From positions 1 to 64,000 of the forward strand of contig NZ_JAOASO010000159.1 in assembly GCF_030158645.1 (NCBI RefSeq): a DNA stretch of 64,000 bases, in the 5' to 3' direction. This DNA is from Hydrogenophaga sp. (GTDB lineage: Bacteria > Pseudomonadota > Gammaproteobacteria > Burkholderiales > Burkholderiaceae_C). Below the pieces are notes generated by a model that saw only the letters and a program-made list of their open reading frames with translations, was not told the origin of the DNA and searched no databases. Each line of letters opens with the position of its first letter. Position 1 is the first letter of the stretch. The position numbers and the translations under genes are program-made. Shown piece after piece: positions 11,833 to 20,907 of the stretch.

Positions 11833-12516
11833 TCAGGCGGGCAGCGCTGCCGTTTGGGGTTGTGGTTTGGGCAGCATGCCGCGCGTCTCGATGAAGCGCA
11901 CCACTTCGTCCACGCCCGCGAGGGTCTTGAGGTTGGTCATGACCCAGGGGCGGCGCGCGCTGTCGGGGCGCATGCGCGCGGTGTCGGCCTTCATCACTTC
12001 CAGATCGGCGCCCACGTGCGGGGCCAGGTCGGTCTTGTTGATGACGAAGAGGTCGCTCTTGGTGATGCCGGGGCCGCCCTTGCGGGGGATTTTTTCGCCG
12101 GCGGCCACGTCGATCACGTAGATGGTGAGGTCGCTGAGCTCGGGGCTGAAGGTGGCGGCCAGGTTGTCGCCGCCGCTTTCGATGAACACCACATCGGCAT
12201 CGGGGAACTCGCCGAGCATGCGGTCAATGGCTTCGAGGTTGATGGAGGCGTCTTCGCGGATGGCGGTGTGCGGGCAACCGCCGGTTTCCACGCCCATGAT
12301 GCGTTCGGCCGGCAGCGCGCCGCTCACGGTGAGGATGCGCTGGTCTTCCTTGGTGTAGATGTCGTTGGTGATGGCGATCAGGTCGTAGCGCTCGCGCATG
12401 GCCTTGCACAGCATTTCCAGCAACGTGGTCTTGCCCGAGCCGACCGGGCCGCCGATGCCCACGCGCAGCGGAGGCAGGTGTTTGGTACGACGGGGAATGT
12501 GGTGCAGGGGGGTCAT
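11833..12516 (-). CDS. ureG: Urease accessory protein UreG
   Basis: [39 protein letters not shown]; start trimmed. Confidence 0.95.
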
Positions 12517-13232
12517 GAGCGGAACAGGCGTGAGTACTGGGTTTCGTGGCGGGCGGAGTGGATGGCGAGCAGGGGCGTGAAGGCTTGCCGGTCGTCGTCG
12601 TGCAGGGCGATGGCGTGGTCCACCGCAGCGGGGATGCGCTGAGCCAGGCGCGCGAGCATGCGCTGGCCGGCGCTCTGGCCCAGCGGCACCGATTTGATGG
12701 ACGCCTGCACCATGTTTTCGCACCAGCCGAACGCATAGCCAACCAGGCTGTCGTGAACGCTGGCGCCGGTGCTCGCGGCGGCGCACGCGCAGGCCACCGG
12801 GTAAGTGGGTGGGTCCAGCCGGGCGCTGTGCAGCTGTTCGAACACGCCGGTGCCCAGCTCGCCGAGCTGGCGCGCCCACTCCATCAGCGAGCGGCCCATC
12901 TGTTCGCTCTGCAGGCGAAATTCGAGGGTCTCGCGGGTCTGCAGCACCCAGTGATTGAGGGCGGTGATGCGCGCCAGGTCGTTGGCGCGCCAGGCGGGGA
13001 TGGCCTGCGCCACCACCGCCAGGTCGCTGCGCGCCAGGCTCAGGTGCAGCTGGTCGGTGAGCCAGGCGGCGGCGCTGGTTTCGTCGTGCACGAGTCCCGC
13101 ATCCACCGCCGATTCGAGACCTTCGGAATACGAGAACCCGCCCACCGGCAGGGCGGGCGAGGCAAGCCAGAGGATCTGCAGCAGGCTGGCGGCCGTGCGG
13201 GGCGCCGCCAGGGCGACGTCACCCGTGGTCAT
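12513..13232 (-). CDS. ureF: Urease accessory protein UreF
   Basis: [30 protein letters not shown]; start trimmed to MTTGDVALA. Confidence 0.92.
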
Positions 13233-13787
13233 GGTTGTGGTGGGTGTGACCGTGCCCATGGTGGTGGCCGTGAGCTTCTTTTGCGCCTGGCGCTTGTGCG
13301 TCGCCAGCGCCATGCACTCCATACGCTCCCGCCTCGGGCTCGAAGGGCTCGCGCACTTCCACCACCGTGAGGTGCATGGCGTGCAGCATCTCGGCGAGCA
13401 CGTGGTCGGGTTCGATCTTCAGGTGGTCGGGTTTGAGCTCGATGGGCACGTGGCGGTTGCCCAGGTGGTAGGCCGCGCGCATGAGGTCGAAAGCCTGTTC
13501 GTGGGCCGGGTGGTCGGGGCAGGCGGTGATGCGCAGCACCGCCTGGGGGGCGGCCACCACGCGCAAGAGCGAACCGTCTTGCGTGATGAGCACGTCGCCC
13601 CCGCGCACCACCGTGCCGCGCGGCAGGAACACGCCCACGTGGCGCTCGTCGGACGCCACGGTGTCGAAGCGGCTCTTCTGGCGCACGTCCCAGTCCAGCT
13701 CCAGGTGCGCAGCGCGTTGCACCATGGTGCGGGCCAGGCCCTGACCTTGCGGGATGAGTTTGGAGGCTTGCAGCATGGGAACGTTGT

Positions 13788-13791
<4 letters not shown>
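13219..13791 (-). CDS. ureE: Urease accessory protein UreE with His-rich C-terminal metal-binding tail
   Basis: [13 protein letters not shown]-type motif ([13 protein letters not shown]) and C-terminal [18 protein letters not shown]. Confidence 0.93.
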
Positions 13792-15502
<1,711 letters not shown>

Positions 15503-15506
<4 letters not shown>

Positions 15507-15811
15507 GCGAGCTTTCCTTGAACCAGGCCGCGAAAGCCGTACACGATGCGGTCGCCCGCGTAGTCCACGAGCTCCACCGTGCGCTGCTGGCCGGGCTCGA
15601 AGCGGACCGCGGTGCCGCTGGCGATGTTCAGTCGCATGCCCTGCGCTGCGGCGCGGTCAAAGTCGAGCGCGCCGTTGACTTCGGCAAAGTGGTAGTGCGA
15701 GCCGACCTGGATCGGGCGGTCGGCGGCGTTCTTCACCACCAGGGTGAGCGTGCGCCGGCCGGGGTTGAGGGTGTGCTGGCCCTCGTCGGTGAAGAGTTCG
15801 CCGGGGATCAT
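15503..15811 (-). CDS. ureB: Urease beta subunit
   Basis: [32 protein letters not shown]. Confidence 0.95.
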
Positions 15812-16001: not shown

Positions 16002-16304
16002 TCAGGGAATGGGTTGGTGCACGGTCACGAGCTTGGTGCCGTCGGGGAAGGTCGCTTCGACCTGGATGTCCGGGATCATCTCGGCGATGCCCTCCATCAC
16101 ATCGGCGCGGGTCAGCACGTTGCGCCCCTCGCTCATGAGTTGGGCCACGGTCTTGCCGTCGCGCGCGCCTTCCATCACGGCCGCGGTGATCAATGCCACG
16201 GCCTCGGGGTAGTTGAGCTTGAGGCCGCGCGCCTGTCGCCGTTCGGCCAGCAAGGCTGCGGTGAAGATCAGCAGCTTGTCTTTTTCTCGGGGCGTCAGTT
16301 CCAT
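16002..16304 (-). CDS. ureA: Urease gamma subunit
   Basis: [39 protein letters not shown]. Confidence 0.96.
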
Positions 16305-16409
16305 GGTGGTGCGTGCGTTCTCGGTGGTGCCTGGGTGGTCTGGTCAGCAATTCCCGTGCCCTGGGTGGGCTCAACCGGCAGCGTGGCACGAAAGCTGCAG
16401 AAATGCCGT

Positions 16410-19400
16410 GTGACAACCATCCCCATCGTCCCCATCAGAACCGCTGCCGCGCCCACCGCAGGGCAGGAGCCCGGGCTGGACGCACCCCAGCGCATCACCC
16501 GCGTGCGCCGCGACTACAACAGCTGGGTCGGCAGCGAGACGATGGAAGACTACGCGCTGCGCTACACGCCGCAGCGCTTTCGCAAGTGGAGCGAATGGCG
16601 CGTGGCCAACACCGCGTTCGGCGCGGCCTCCTTCCTCATCCTGGAGGCCGTGGGCGCCACCTTGTTGGTGCAGTACGGGTTTGTGAACGCCGCGCTGGCC
16701 ATCCTCTGCACCGGGTTGATCATCTTTTTCGCGGGCCTGCCCATCAGCGTGTACGCCGCGCGCTACGGGGTCGACATGGACCTGCTCACGCGCGGCGCGG
16801 GCTTCGGCTACATCGGCTCCACCATCACCTCGCTGATCTACGCCACCTTCACCTTCATCTTTTTCGCGCTCGAAGCGGCGGTGATGGCCTATGCGCTGGA
16901 GCTCGCGCTCGACATCCCGCCCGCCTGGGGCTACCTCATCTGCGCGGTGGTGGTCATCCCGCTGGTCACGCACGGGGTGTCGGTGATCAGCCGCTTCCAG
17001 GTCTGGACCCAGCCGCTGTGGCTGGTGATGATGGTGGTGCCTTTTGGGGCGGTGCTGGTCATGGCGCCCGAAACTTTCACCAACGTGGTGCGTTATGGGG
17101 GCGAGTCCGGTGCGGGCACGCTGTTTGATTGGCACTTGTTTGGTGCGGCGCTGACGGTGGGCATCGCGCTCATCACGCAGATGGGCGAGCAGGCGGACTA
17201 CTTGCGCTTCATGCCCGCCAAGGAGCCGGGCAAAGGGCTGCGCTGGTGGGCGGGCGTGCTGGCCGGGGGGCCGGGCTGGGTGGTGCTGGGCGTGGTGAAG
17301 ATGCTGGGCGGCGCGGTGCTGGCGTATCTGGCCATCAGCCACATGGTGCCCCCCGAGCGCGCGGTGGACCCCAACCAGATGTACCTGGCGGCCTACGAAT
17401 TTGTCTTTCCCGACTACGGCTGGGCGGTGGCCGCCACGGCCTTGTTTGTGGTGGTCTCGCAGCTCAAGATCAACGTGACCAACGCCTACGCCGGCTCGCT
17501 GGCCTGGAGCAACTTCTTCTCGCGCATCACCCACAGCCACCCCGGGCGCGTGGTGTGGGTGGTGTTCAACACCTTCATCGCCTTCATGCTGATGGAGATG
17601 AACGTGTTCCAGGCGCTGGGCCAGGTGCTCGGCGTGTACTCCAACATCGCGATCGCCTGGATCATGGCGGTGGTGGCCGACCTGGTGATCAACAAGCCGC
17701 TGGGCTGGAGCCCCAAGGGCATCGAGTTCAAGCGGGCGTACCTGTACGACATCAACCCCGTGGGGGTGGGCGCCATGGTGCTGGCCTCGGTGCTGTCGAT
17801 CACCGCCCACATGGGTTTGATGGGGCCCACAGCCGAGGCGTTTTCGGCGGTGATTGCGATGGTCACGGCGTTTGTGACGGCGCCCTTGATTGCGTGGGGC
17901 ACGCAGGGGCGGTATTACATCGCCAGAGCCGCCGGTCCCGAAGGTGCCGCAGGCAGTGCCACATTGCACACCTGCGTCATCTGTGAGCGTGAATACGAAG
18001 CGCCCGACATGTCGCACTGCCCCGCGTACCAAGGCCACATCTGTTCGCTGTGTTGCACGCTGGACGCGCGCTGCGGCGACCTGTGCAAACCGCACGCCAA
18101 GCTCTCCGAGCAATGGATGGGCGCGCTGCGGCGTGTGTTGCCGCGCTCCATCTGGCCCTATCTGGAGGCGGGCCTGGCGCACTACCTGCTGCTCATGCTG
18201 GTGATGGCGCCGGTGCTGGCGGCGGTGCTCGGGTTGTTGTACCGGCAGGAGGTGCAGGCGCTGGCGTCCCGCATGGGCTTGTCGGCCAATGCCGGCTTGC
18301 TCGACGCCGCGCTGCGTTCCGGATTTGTGCGCGTGTACGCCGTGCTGCTGCTCATCACGGCCACGGTGGCCTGGTGGCTGGTGCTGGCGCACAAGAGCCG
18401 CGAGGTGGCGCAGGAAGAGTCGAACCGGCAGACACGCTTGCTCCTGCAGGAGATCGAGTCGCACCGCCTCACCGACGAAGCCCTGCAGCAGGCACGCCTG
18501 GCGGCTGAGCACGCCAACCAGGCCAAGACCCGCTACATCAGCACCATCAGCCATGAGCTGAGAACGCCGCTCAACAGCATCCTGGGCTACGCGCAGCTGC
18601 TGCAGGAAGACACCGGCATGGCGCCGCACCGCGCGCAGGCCATCCGCGTGATCAACCGGGGCGGCGAGCACCTGCTGTCGTTGATCGAAGGCACGCTGGA
18701 CATCGCGCGCATCGAGTCCGGCAAGCTCGCACTCGATGTGCGGCCCATGGCCTTTGCCGGCGCCATGCAGGAGGTGGCCGGCATGTTCGAGTTGCAGGCC
18801 AGCGCCAAGGGCCTGCGCTTTGTGTTCGAAGCCGGCAGCCGCCTGCCCGACACGGTGCGCGCCGACGAAAAACGCCTGCGCCAGATCCTCATCAACCTGC
18901 TGGGCAACGCGGTGAAGTTCACGCAGGTTGGCCAGGTGCGGCTGCGCGTCACGCATGCGCGCGAGATGGCGCAGTTCGAGGTGCACGACACCGGCCCCGG
19001 CATGCGCGCGCAAGACCTGGAGCGTGTGTTTGAACCTTTCGCACGCGGGCAGAACGAAACGGCGCCCGGGCCCTCCACCGGCACCGGCCTGGGCCTGACC
19101 ATTGCCAAGATGCTCACCGACCTCATGGGTGGCGAGATGACCGTGCGCAGCGCACCCGGCGAAGGCTCGGTGTTCACCGTGCGCCTGTTTTTGCCCGAGG
19201 TGCACGGCGCGGTGCTGCCGCGCCCACTGGCCCTGCCCGGCCACATCGGCTACGAAGGCGCGCGCAAACGCGTGCTGGTGGTGGACAACGAAGAGGCCGA
19301 CCGCGAACTCATCCAGCGCTGGCTGGCGCCGCTGGGCTTCGAGGTGATGCTCGCCACCAGCGGGCTCGATGCGCTGGCCCTGCTCGAAGGGTTGCACCCC

Positions 19401-19910
19401 GGCGACGCGGGCGCGCCCGACGCCGTGTTCATGGACCTGGCCATGCCCGGCATCGACGGCTGGGAAACCATGCGCCGGCTGCGCGCCAGCGGCTGGGGCA
19501 CGGTGCCGCTGGCCATCGTGTCGGCCAACGCGTTCGACAAGGGCCTCGACAACGATCTTGGTCACCGGCCACAAGACTTCTTTGTGAAACCGGTGCGCCG
19601 CGACGATTTGCTCGGCTGGCTCGGCCAGCGGCTGCAATTGGTGTGGATCGAATGGCCGGCGACCGAGCCAGCCACCGTTGCGGCACCTGCCGCCGCAGCC
19701 CGGCCGACGCACGCAGTCACCAGCGGTCGCGACTTCGAACCCCTGCTCGAACTCGTGCGCCTGGGCTACTACAAGGGCATCGTGCAGTGGCTCGACGAGT
19801 GGGTGCAAGACCACCCCGAGCAAGCGGCATTTGCCCAGCAACTGCGCACGCTCGCGCGCGAATTCCGCTTTGACGCCATCGAACAGCAGCTGCTGCAGCG
19901 CCATGTCTGA
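16410..19910 (+). CDS. Fusion protein: NCS1-type permease domain, Cys-rich linker, histidine kinase (HisKA/HATPase), receiver domain and C-terminal helical domain (~1166 aa)
   Basis: DYNSWVGSETMEDYALRYTPQRFRKW plus 12-TM-like region (NCS1-like); CxxC...CSLCC...C linker; ISHELRTPLNSILGYAQLL H-box, GTGLGLTIAKML; RVLVVDNEEADREL..VFMDLAMPGIDG receiver. GTG start inferred. Confidence 0.85.
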   Translation: MTTIPIVPIRTAAAPTAGQEPGLDAPQRITRVRRDYNSWVGSETMEDYALRYTPQRFRKWSEWRVANTAFGAASFLILEAVGATLLVQYGFVNAALAILCTGLIIFFAGLPISVYAARYGVDMDLLTRGAGFGYIGSTITSLIYATFTFIFFALEAAVMAYALELALDIPPAWGYLICAVVVIPLVTHGVSVISRFQVWTQPLWLVMMVVPFGAVLVMAPETFTNVVRYGGESGAGTLFDWHLFGAALTVGIALITQMGEQADYLRFMPAKEPGKGLRWWAGVLAGGPGWVVLGVVKMLGGAVLAYLAISHMVPPERAVDPNQMYLAAYEFVFPDYGWAVAATALFVVVSQLKINVTNAYAGSLAWSNFFSRITHSHPGRVVWVVFNTFIAFMLMEMNVFQALGQVLGVYSNIAIAWIMAVVADLVINKPLGWSPKGIEFKRAYLYDINPVGVGAMVLASVLSITAHMGLMGPTAEAFSAVIAMVTAFVTAPLIAWGTQGRYYIARAAGPEGAAGSATLHTCVICEREYEAPDMSHCPAYQGHICSLCCTLDARCGDLCKPHAKLSEQWMGALRRVLPRSIWPYLEAGLAHYLLLMLVMAPVLAAVLGLLYRQEVQALASRMGLSANAGLLDAALRSGFVRVYAVLLLITATVAWWLVLAHKSREVAQEESNRQTRLLLQEIESHRLTDEALQQARLAAEHANQAKTRYISTISHELRTPLNSILGYAQLLQEDTGMAPHRAQAIRVINRGGEHLLSLIEGTLDIARIESGKLALDVRPMAFAGAMQEVAGMFELQASAKGLRFVFEAGSRLPDTVRADEKRLRQILINLLGNAVKFTQVGQVRLRVTHAREMAQFEVHDTGPGMRAQDLERVFEPFARGQNETAPGPSTGTGLGLTIAKMLTDLMGGEMTVRSAPGEGSVFTVRLFLPEVHGAVLPRPLALPGHIGYEGARKRVLVVDNEEADRELIQRWLAPLGFEVMLATSGLDALALLEGLHPGDAGAPDAVFMDLAMPGIDGWETMRRLRASGWGTVPLAIVSANAFDKGLDNDLGHRPQDFFVKPVRRDDLLGWLGQRLQLVWIEWPATEPATVAAPAAAARPTHAVTSGRDFEPLLELVRLGYYKGIVQWLDEWVQDHPEQAAFAQQLRTLAREFRFDAIEQQLLQRHV

Positions 19911-20907
19911 ATTCATGCGGCAACAGGGCGACCAGCTCATCGTGCTGATCGTGGACGACGTGCCCGACAACGTGGCGCCGCTGCACGATGCGCTGGACGA
20001 TGCTGGGTATACCGTGCTCGTGGCGCTCGACGGCGAAAGCGCCATCCGCCGCGCCACGCAGGCTCTGCCCGACGTGGTGCTGCTCGACGCGGTGATGCCC
20101 GGCATCGACGGCTTCGAGGTGGCGCGTCGCCTGAAAGCGCAGCCCGCCACCGCGCACATTCCCATCATCTTCATGACCGGCCTGACCGAGACCGAACACC
20201 TGGTGGCCGCGCTCGACGCCGGCGGTGCCGACTACGTGACCAAACCCATCAAGCCGCGCGAGGTGATGGCGCGCATGGGGGTGCACCTGCGCACCGCGCG
20301 CCACGTGCGCCAGGGCGCGGTGGAGCGCAGCCAGGCGCGCAACGCACTCGATGCGTTCGGCTACGCCACCATCACCGTGCGCGAGAGCGACGGCCGCCTG
20401 ATGTGGCAAACGCCGCTGGCGCGTGACCTGCTGCGCAACTACTGCGGCACCGAATCGCCCACCACCCCACCGGCGGTCCTGCAGTGGTTGCGGCGCCACC
20501 TGGTGGACTTGGTCGGGGCCAGCGAACAGCGCGAGCCGCCCCGCCTGACGCTGGAAAACGGCCCGCGCCGGCTCACCTTCAGGCTGCACCAGCGCGTGGG
20601 CGACGAAGACGGCGAGGTGGATGCCGGCGGCGATTGGCTCATCGTGATGCAGGAAACCTCGGACGCCAGCGTGCTCTCCAGCGTGGCCGGCGCCTTCGGC
20701 CTCACTGCGCGCGAGGCCGAGGTCTTGTACTGGGTGGTCAAAGGCAAGATCAACCGCGACATCGGCGACATCATCGGCGCCAGCCCCGCCACGGTGAAGA
20801 AGCACCTGGAACGCATCTACGCCAAGCTCGGCGTGGAAACCCGTACGGCGGCGGCCGCCATGGCCATCAACCGCGTGCCACTGCTCCAGCCGCAGCACGG
20901 AGGCTGA
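19903..20907 (+). CDS. Response regulator with receiver domain and C-terminal LuxR-type HTH
   Basis: VLIVDDVPDNVAPLHDAL, VVLLDAVMPGIDG, FGLTAREAEVLYWVVKGKINRDIGDIIGASPATVKKHLERIYAKLGVETRTAAAAMA; start overlaps end of kinase. Confidence 0.92.
   Translation: MSEFMRQQGDQLIVLIVDDVPDNVAPLHDALDDAGYTVLVALDGESAIRRATQALPDVVLLDAVMPGIDGFEVARRLKAQPATAHIPIIFMTGLTETEHLVAALDAGGADYVTKPIKPREVMARMGVHLRTARHVRQGAVERSQARNALDAFGYATITVRESDGRLMWQTPLARDLLRNYCGTESPTTPPAVLQWLRRHLVDLVGASEQREPPRLTLENGPRRLTFRLHQRVGDEDGEVDAGGDWLIVMQETSDASVLSSVAGAFGLTAREAEVLYWVVKGKINRDIGDIIGASPATVKKHLERIYAKLGVETRTAAAAMAINRVPLLQPQHGG

Follow-up and report, generated by a model that had tools for sequence, protein, structure and literature searches.

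To our knowledge, the way in which bacteria sense urea and small amides outside the cell is largely an open subject, and few fusions of a transporter to a histidine kinase have been described. UhpC, a separate MFS protein and a transporter homologue of UhpT, partners a kinase as its sensor. Among fused proteins, CbrA and CrbS (MxtR) of Pseudomonas and Vibrio carry a transporter of LeuT-type fold N-terminal to a histidine kinase and are linked to nutrients; the CrbS kinase is a hybrid one, and in SLC5-STAC kinases a linker domain has been proposed to couple the transporter to the kinase (PMC13022988, PMC7918813). Ks-Amt5 of Kuenenia is likewise a repurposed transporter fused directly to a histidine kinase, and its ligand is a nitrogen compound (PMC5764959). 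Here we describe a gene of Hydrogenophaga sp. (assembly GCF_030158645.1, contig NZ_JAOASO010000159.1, positions 1 to 64,000 of the forward strand; the window below is this whole stretch of 64,000 nt) that encodes a predicted NCS1-fold permease and a hybrid histidine kinase in one chain, divergent from a urease operon. We consider it likely that the product is an NCS1-derived transceptor kinase that induces the uptake of urea or amides.

The fusion works like CbrA/CrbS and Ks-Amt5, yet it belongs to neither. Compared with CbrA/CrbS, its transporter is NCS1 rather than SLC5, a Pfam scan of the full protein detected no PAS domain, the linker comprises a module of eight cysteines and a pair of transmembrane (TM) helices with no evident STAC domain (a distinction drawn by description), and the family is linked to urea and amide genes and to a LuxR-type regulator. 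Ks-Amt5 has the Amt fold and ammonium as its ligand, lacks a described Cys module and is a single described protein, whereas the fusion considered here represents a widespread family. UhpC offers a likeness of another kind, in that a transporter homologue senses for a paralogous transporter, as at the Acinetobacter baumannii locus L142 and at locus L225 of genome G874; unlike UhpC, the window protein holds sensor and kinase in one chain and has the NCS1 fold. In a report on Ectopseudomonas guguanensis G3, a hybrid kinase and a LuxR-type regulator stand beside a second urtABCDE operon (PMC13296017); the passages concerned do not describe that kinase as a permease, and the likeness is one of description, not of sequence. 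No description of an NCS1-kinase fusion was found in the open-access literature searched, subscription journals lying outside that search. With its concrete ligand class, its candidate operator and its natural pairs of sensor and transporter paralogues, the family makes transport versus sensing directly testable. The features of the fusion gene and of the regulator gene that overlaps its end are the following.

16410..19910, + strand: transporter-derived hybrid histidine kinase gene; 1166 residues, GTG start, TGA stop, one open frame
16545..17924, + strand: predicted NCS1-fold permease domain, residues ~46-505 (AlphaFold2 model, Foldseek, CodB model matches in relatives)
17967..18089, + strand: 8-Cys module, residues 520-560 (C522, C525, C537, C545, C548, C549, C555, C559)
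18162..18389, + strand: additional pair of TM helices, then the beginning of the signalling coiled coil, residues ~585-660 (model, hydrophobic stretches)
18522..18722, + strand: HisKA, residues 705-771, phospho-acceptor H715 (codon 18552-18554); Pfam 9.2e-17
18864..19193, + strand: HATPase_c, residues 819-928; Pfam 1.1e-27
19272..19613, + strand: receiver domain Response_reg, residues 955-1068, with D1009 (codon 19434-19436); Pfam 1.2e-15
19692..19907, + strand: C-terminal region past the receiver, residues ~1095-1166 (sequence only; no Pfam family)
19903..20907, + strand: response regulator REC-LuxR (GerE); Pfam Response_reg 1.6e-26, GerE 6.6e-16

A preliminary description of this DNA had called the membrane half an NCS1-like permease. 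Because a Pfam search gave no match to the N-terminal 667 residues of the window protein, not even at E=10, this label needed other evidence. The Pfam family PF02133 (Transp_cyt_pur) matched one of 35 family members (8.6e-10) and left the window protein unmatched, and the NCBIfam CodB model matched 12 of the 35 (best 8.5e-8). When the AlphaFold2 model (pLDDT 80, pTM 0.79) was submitted to Foldseek, the top five PDB matches were all Mhp1 or CodB (2jln Mhp1, 7qoa CodB; E 2e-8 to 1e-6), with the first SSS protein ranked below them at 7.8e-6; sequence searches of the PDB with the permease alignment, and with a standalone permease, gave no matches. Identity to these best structural matches is only about 15%, and unlike Mhp1 and CodB the window protein is kinase-fused, has no PF02133 match and lies in a urea/amide context. 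On the predicted structure, then, the N-terminal half is an NCS1-fold permease domain, NCS1 being family TC 2.A.39, and the label holds. Membership of SSS/SLC5 was rejected on two counts, the absence of an SSS Pfam match and the rank of NCS1 structures above SSS. A whole-genome Pfam scan detects NCS1 genes and misses the fusion family; the only Pfam-visible NCS1 gene in this assembly is a weak, truncated Transp_cyt_pur match near a contig end (G000:C77:99-551).

The permease core is strongly conserved, with more than 70 invariant columns across 35 sequences, and standalone relatives of it exist. Fused and standalone permeases have 96 conserved positions in common and only 5 group-specific differences. 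In Klebsiella, a gene annotated as 'cytosine permease' (L139:8983-10590), the last gene of ureDABCEFG, is such a relative, with 45% identity to the permease half of the sensor; from its sequence and setting it is possibly a urea permease, and Klebsiella urease clusters may accordingly hold an NCS1-type permease, under that annotation, that carries urea. At the A. baumannii locus the standalone permease is divergent from the fusion, forming a sensor/transporter paralogue pair.

Gene linkage was surveyed at 59 fusion loci of Alpha-, Beta- and Gammaproteobacteria, with neighbours taken within the fetched ~20 kb. Genes of urt, ure, fmdA or amiE lay within about 10 kb at 54 of these (urt 46, fmdA 41, amiE 20, ure 14) and a response-regulator neighbour was present in 51, whereas the same linkage test on ordinary NCS1 genes from the same order was positive in 1 of 14 (Fisher p=1.3e-9). 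That sole exception among the controls, L236, is an NCS1 gene that Pfam does detect and that has urtABCDE and an amidase as neighbours. Among close orthologues of the window gene, 74 of 80 have ureA directly divergent. Annotated fusion cases come from Burkholderia, Sinorhizobium meliloti pSymB, Chelatococcus, Klebsiella plasmids, Methylosinus, Methylobacterium and Thioclava. The importer beside the kinase is interchangeable: most loci have urtABCDE; L202 and L216 have an AmiS/UreI channel with FmdA, and there the fusion kinase lacks the receiver and is followed by a separate REC-kinase protein; at L225 (G874) a standalone permease relative with FmdA, FmdB and a CN hydrolase replaces urtABCDE. 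Kinase and amide hydrolases stay while uptake systems swap. A published study describes a urt-fmdA-amiE cluster that probably carries amides other than urea (PMC3098086). The Hydrogenophaga genome itself holds a second fusion (L166), and because this one sits at urtABCDE-fmdA-fmdB-amiE and the window copy at ure, the two copies look specialised for amide-linked and urease-linked loci, respectively.

In general, transporter derivatives that serve only as receptors are known, and a dedicated ABC importer already stands beside the fusion in most loci; both points speak against a variant, compatible with the best explanation, in which the protein is at once transporter and sensor, a flux-sensing transceptor. 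The variant draws support from the core, which is identical to that of standalone permeases at conserved positions, and from CbrA, which transports histidine (PMC7918813, PMC13022988), and we regard it as possible, if somewhat doubtful.

As to what the proposed transceptor kinase would recognise, urea and short amides, not nucleobases, are the likely ligands, because the genomic partners are urtABCDE, ureABC, fmdA, amiE and AmiS/UreI and because standalone relatives occur in urease and formamidase/amidase clusters. The preliminary description had placed the permease in the nucleobase/hydantoin/allantoin class and proposed that it senses a nitrogenous substrate or its flux; the linkage to urea and amide nitrogen metabolism is supported, and the partners redirect the substrate class from uracil, allantoin or hydantoin to urea or short amides. 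In a rival explanation, a nucleobase, hydantoin or product of purine breakdown (allantoin, cytosine) is what the permease domain would sense, with urea uptake switched on downstream in purine/pyrimidine catabolism. NCS1 proteins with solved structures do carry hydantoin and cytosine, and allantoin breakdown ends in urea, but the genes conserved around the fusion are urt, ure, fmdA, amiE and AmiS/UreI, the formamidase/amidase linkage is left unexplained by purines, and the standalone relatives belong to urease or formamidase/amidase clusters; we judge this rival unlikely.

Between permease and kinase, the Cys-rich linker of the preliminary description proved to be a module whose eight Cys residues are all invariant in 73/73 diverse fusions. 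Foldseek with this module returned weak resemblances only, many of them to RING, PHD, FYVE or LIM fingers and none significant (E >= 0.29), and a sequence search gave weak zinc-finger matches only (best E 0.02); from the Cys pattern and these resemblances the module is probably a zinc-binding finger. Because most standalone relatives retain some of the eight Cys, and one retains all of them, the motif appears common to the permease tail. The module is followed in the AlphaFold2 model by helices 589-622 and 628-689, the TM helix pair, which the preliminary description had missed along with the overlapping REC-LuxR gene. The kinase shows the features of a hybrid histidine kinase: the HisKA residue H715 is kept in 71/73 diverse fusions and the receiver residue D1009 in 70/73, and the N and G boxes of HATPase are conserved.

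These same cysteines can be read differently, with the permease half as a vestigial anchor, the kinase governed from elsewhere (by metal or redox at the 8-Cys module, or by the state of the membrane or of nitrogen), and the urea linkage reflecting regulated targets only. Eight invariant Cys do suggest a metal or redox centre, and an overexpressed CbrA kinase without its transporter domain still works (PMC7918813). An anchor, however, has no need of more than 70 invariant core columns in 35 sequences or of 96 positions that match standalone permeases, and we find this account improbable.

The transceptor kinase reading further predicts an output, for which the overlapping gene is the candidate. 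This gene, whose start overlaps the end of the kinase gene by 8 nt (ATGTCTGA), encodes both a REC domain and a GerE helix-turn-helix, as expected of a LuxR/NarL-type regulator. A dyad TACG-N8-CGTA, with the consensus ATACGTCAATTGACGTAT, occurs in 33 of 43 non-redundant urtA/fusion gaps against 0.1 expected, and the palindrome TACGYCANNTGRCGTA marks urtA promoters. Across 2.95 Mb of fusion loci there are 62 dyad sites, most of which border urtA; in a few loci the candidate operator lies upstream of fmdA or of a standalone permease. The ure-type Comamonadaceae have a variant dyad, TACGCCACCCGGCGTA, upstream of urtA and often just past the regulator gene. TACGTCA sites pair with the regulator helix RTVNKHLE and TACGCCA sites with ATVKKHLE. 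In the 3.7-Mb Hydrogenophaga genome the only two dyad sites at <=1 mismatch lie upstream of its two urtA operons, that of the paralogue and that on contig C138, with the sequences TACGCCACCCGGCGTA on C138 and TACGTCAAATAACGTA on C136. The predicted regulator site at G000:C138:13769-13784 (L244), ~250 bp upstream of the second urtABCDE operon, is in trans to the window.

The gap between the kinase gene and the divergent ureA, put at about 100 bp in the preliminary description, spans 105 bp from the ureA start at 16304(-) to GTG 16410 and contains two sigma-54-like boxes.

16346..16361, - strand: sigma-54-like -24/-12 box towards ureA (GGGCACGGGAATTGCT)
16384..16399, + strand: sigma-54-like box towards the kinase gene (TGGCACGAAAGCTGCA); predicted +1 on GTG 16410

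Boxes of this kind (TGGCAC-N5-TTGCW, >=10/12) occur in each direction in 42 of 46 non-redundant ure-type gaps versus 3% in control stretches, and rpoN is present in the genome. GTG 16410 keeps its position in the alignment of Hydrogenophaga and Ramlibacter loci, in which the box-to-GTG spacing also recurs, and Acidovorax has an ATG about 18 nt later. From this spacing, the kinase mRNA is possibly a leaderless sigma-54 transcript.

From the architecture, fold, conservation, gene linkage and operator distribution computed here we infer the following mechanism. An ancestral NCS1 permease for urea or short-chain amides (formamide, acetamide) would have been fused to a hybrid histidine kinase by way of its own C-terminal Cys motif, now the putatively zinc-binding 8-Cys module, and an added TM pair. 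Binding of urea or an amide in the NCS1 pocket, or its slow passage, would shift the LeuT-fold bundle, and the shift would be relayed through the Cys module, the TM pair and the coiled coil to HisKA H715. A phosphorelay from H715 to D1009 and on to the co-expressed LuxR-type regulator would then allow the phosphorylated regulator to bind the dyad TACGYCANNTGRCGTA and activate urtABCDE, the target in some other genomes being fmdA or a standalone NCS1 permease. For this Hydrogenophaga we predict that the regulator acts on the urtABCDE operon elsewhere in the genome, on contig C138; under nitrogen limitation, sigma-54 would raise expression of the urease operon and perhaps that of the kinase gene too. 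More broadly, the balance tips modestly towards a large NCS1-derived transceptor-kinase family turned to recognition of urea and short amides, in which standalone members would be unrecognised urea or amide permeases, the 8-Cys coupling module would be common with the permease tail, and the operator would have co-evolved with the regulator.

Several points weigh against this proposal. For ligand, transport, phosphorylation and expression the case is built on sequence and predicted structure. The operator scores highest in the very loci from which the motif was derived, and because a genome-wide control with the reversed pattern gave 4 chance matches at one mismatch, it is the position of the two genome sites, not their number, that is informative. 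The co-change of operator and helix may be one event in one clade. Relatives, moreover, supply the grounds on which the urtABCDE operon on C138 is predicted as a target in trans, and the ureA/kinase gap of the window carries no operator dyad. Because the candidate operator lies upstream of urtA and the ureA gap is without one, 'induces urea uptake' appears better supported than 'controls ureA'; of the control over urea and urease metabolism proposed in the preliminary description, the part that concerns urea uptake is the one that the operator favours, and for ureA the two sigma-54-like boxes stand in its place. Fusion loci L175 and L176, with genes of ~1400 residues, have no urt, ure or fmdA neighbours, and the substrate of urtABCDE-fmdA clusters may be formamide instead of urea, leaving several ligand candidates. 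At L175 a REC-HD regulator gene lies next to the fusion, as does a cluster for phenol/methane hydroxylase.

The fusion family is present across Alpha-, Beta- and Gammaproteobacteria. A whole-collection scan gave at least 582 confirmed relatives, and matches were found in 43 of 250 genomes of a same-order sample and 55 of 399 of a phylum sample, figures that include a few standalone, partial or distant permeases. Relatives of the permease half occur in 544 plasmid records, 342 of them from Klebsiella; on one Klebsiella plasmid (L141, IncFIB/IncFII) the fusion adjoins urtABCDE and a formamidase. Annotated records mostly name the fusion 'ATP-binding protein'. In a tree, standalone genes are nested among fusions, which may reflect secondary losses or the placement of the root, the sole outgroup row lying on a branch of about 10; the window copy falls within a clade of ure-linked fusions. 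The full-length fusion, with the single frame through HisKA/HATPase and receiver that the preliminary description had read, was recovered in 110/111 fetched loci (of those lacking it, L001 is an unrelated locus and L062 is truncated by the end of its contig). The explanation that a frameshift or faulty assembly united separate permease and kinase genes has a negligible chance of being correct and was rejected, since the single frame recurs in several bacterial families and in plasmid records of unrelated organisms.

Within the window, third-position GC in the kinase-gene frame is 0.72-1.0 over most of 16494-19800. The open reading frame mechanically reaches upstream to 15744, where it overlaps ureA and ureB on the opposite strand with the wrong codon signature; by the third-position GC test this extension is non-coding. 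An antisense open frame of 1267 codons, 16371-20174(-), shadows the kinase gene and is a GC-rich shadow frame with no evidence of a gene. The urease genes on the other side of the gap are as follows.

16002..16304, - strand: ureA, urease gamma, divergent from the kinase gene; Pfam Urease_gamma 3.4e-48
15503..15811, - strand: ureB, urease beta; Pfam Urease_beta
13788..15506, - strand: ureC, urease alpha; NCBIfam PRK13207 and TIGR01792
13219..13791, - strand: ureE; Pfam UreE_N/UreE_C
12513..13322, - strand: ureF; Pfam UreF on a mechanical open reading frame, the true start probably further in
11833..12466, - strand: ureG; Pfam cobW/HypB/UreG on the enclosing open reading frame 11833-12879, start approximate

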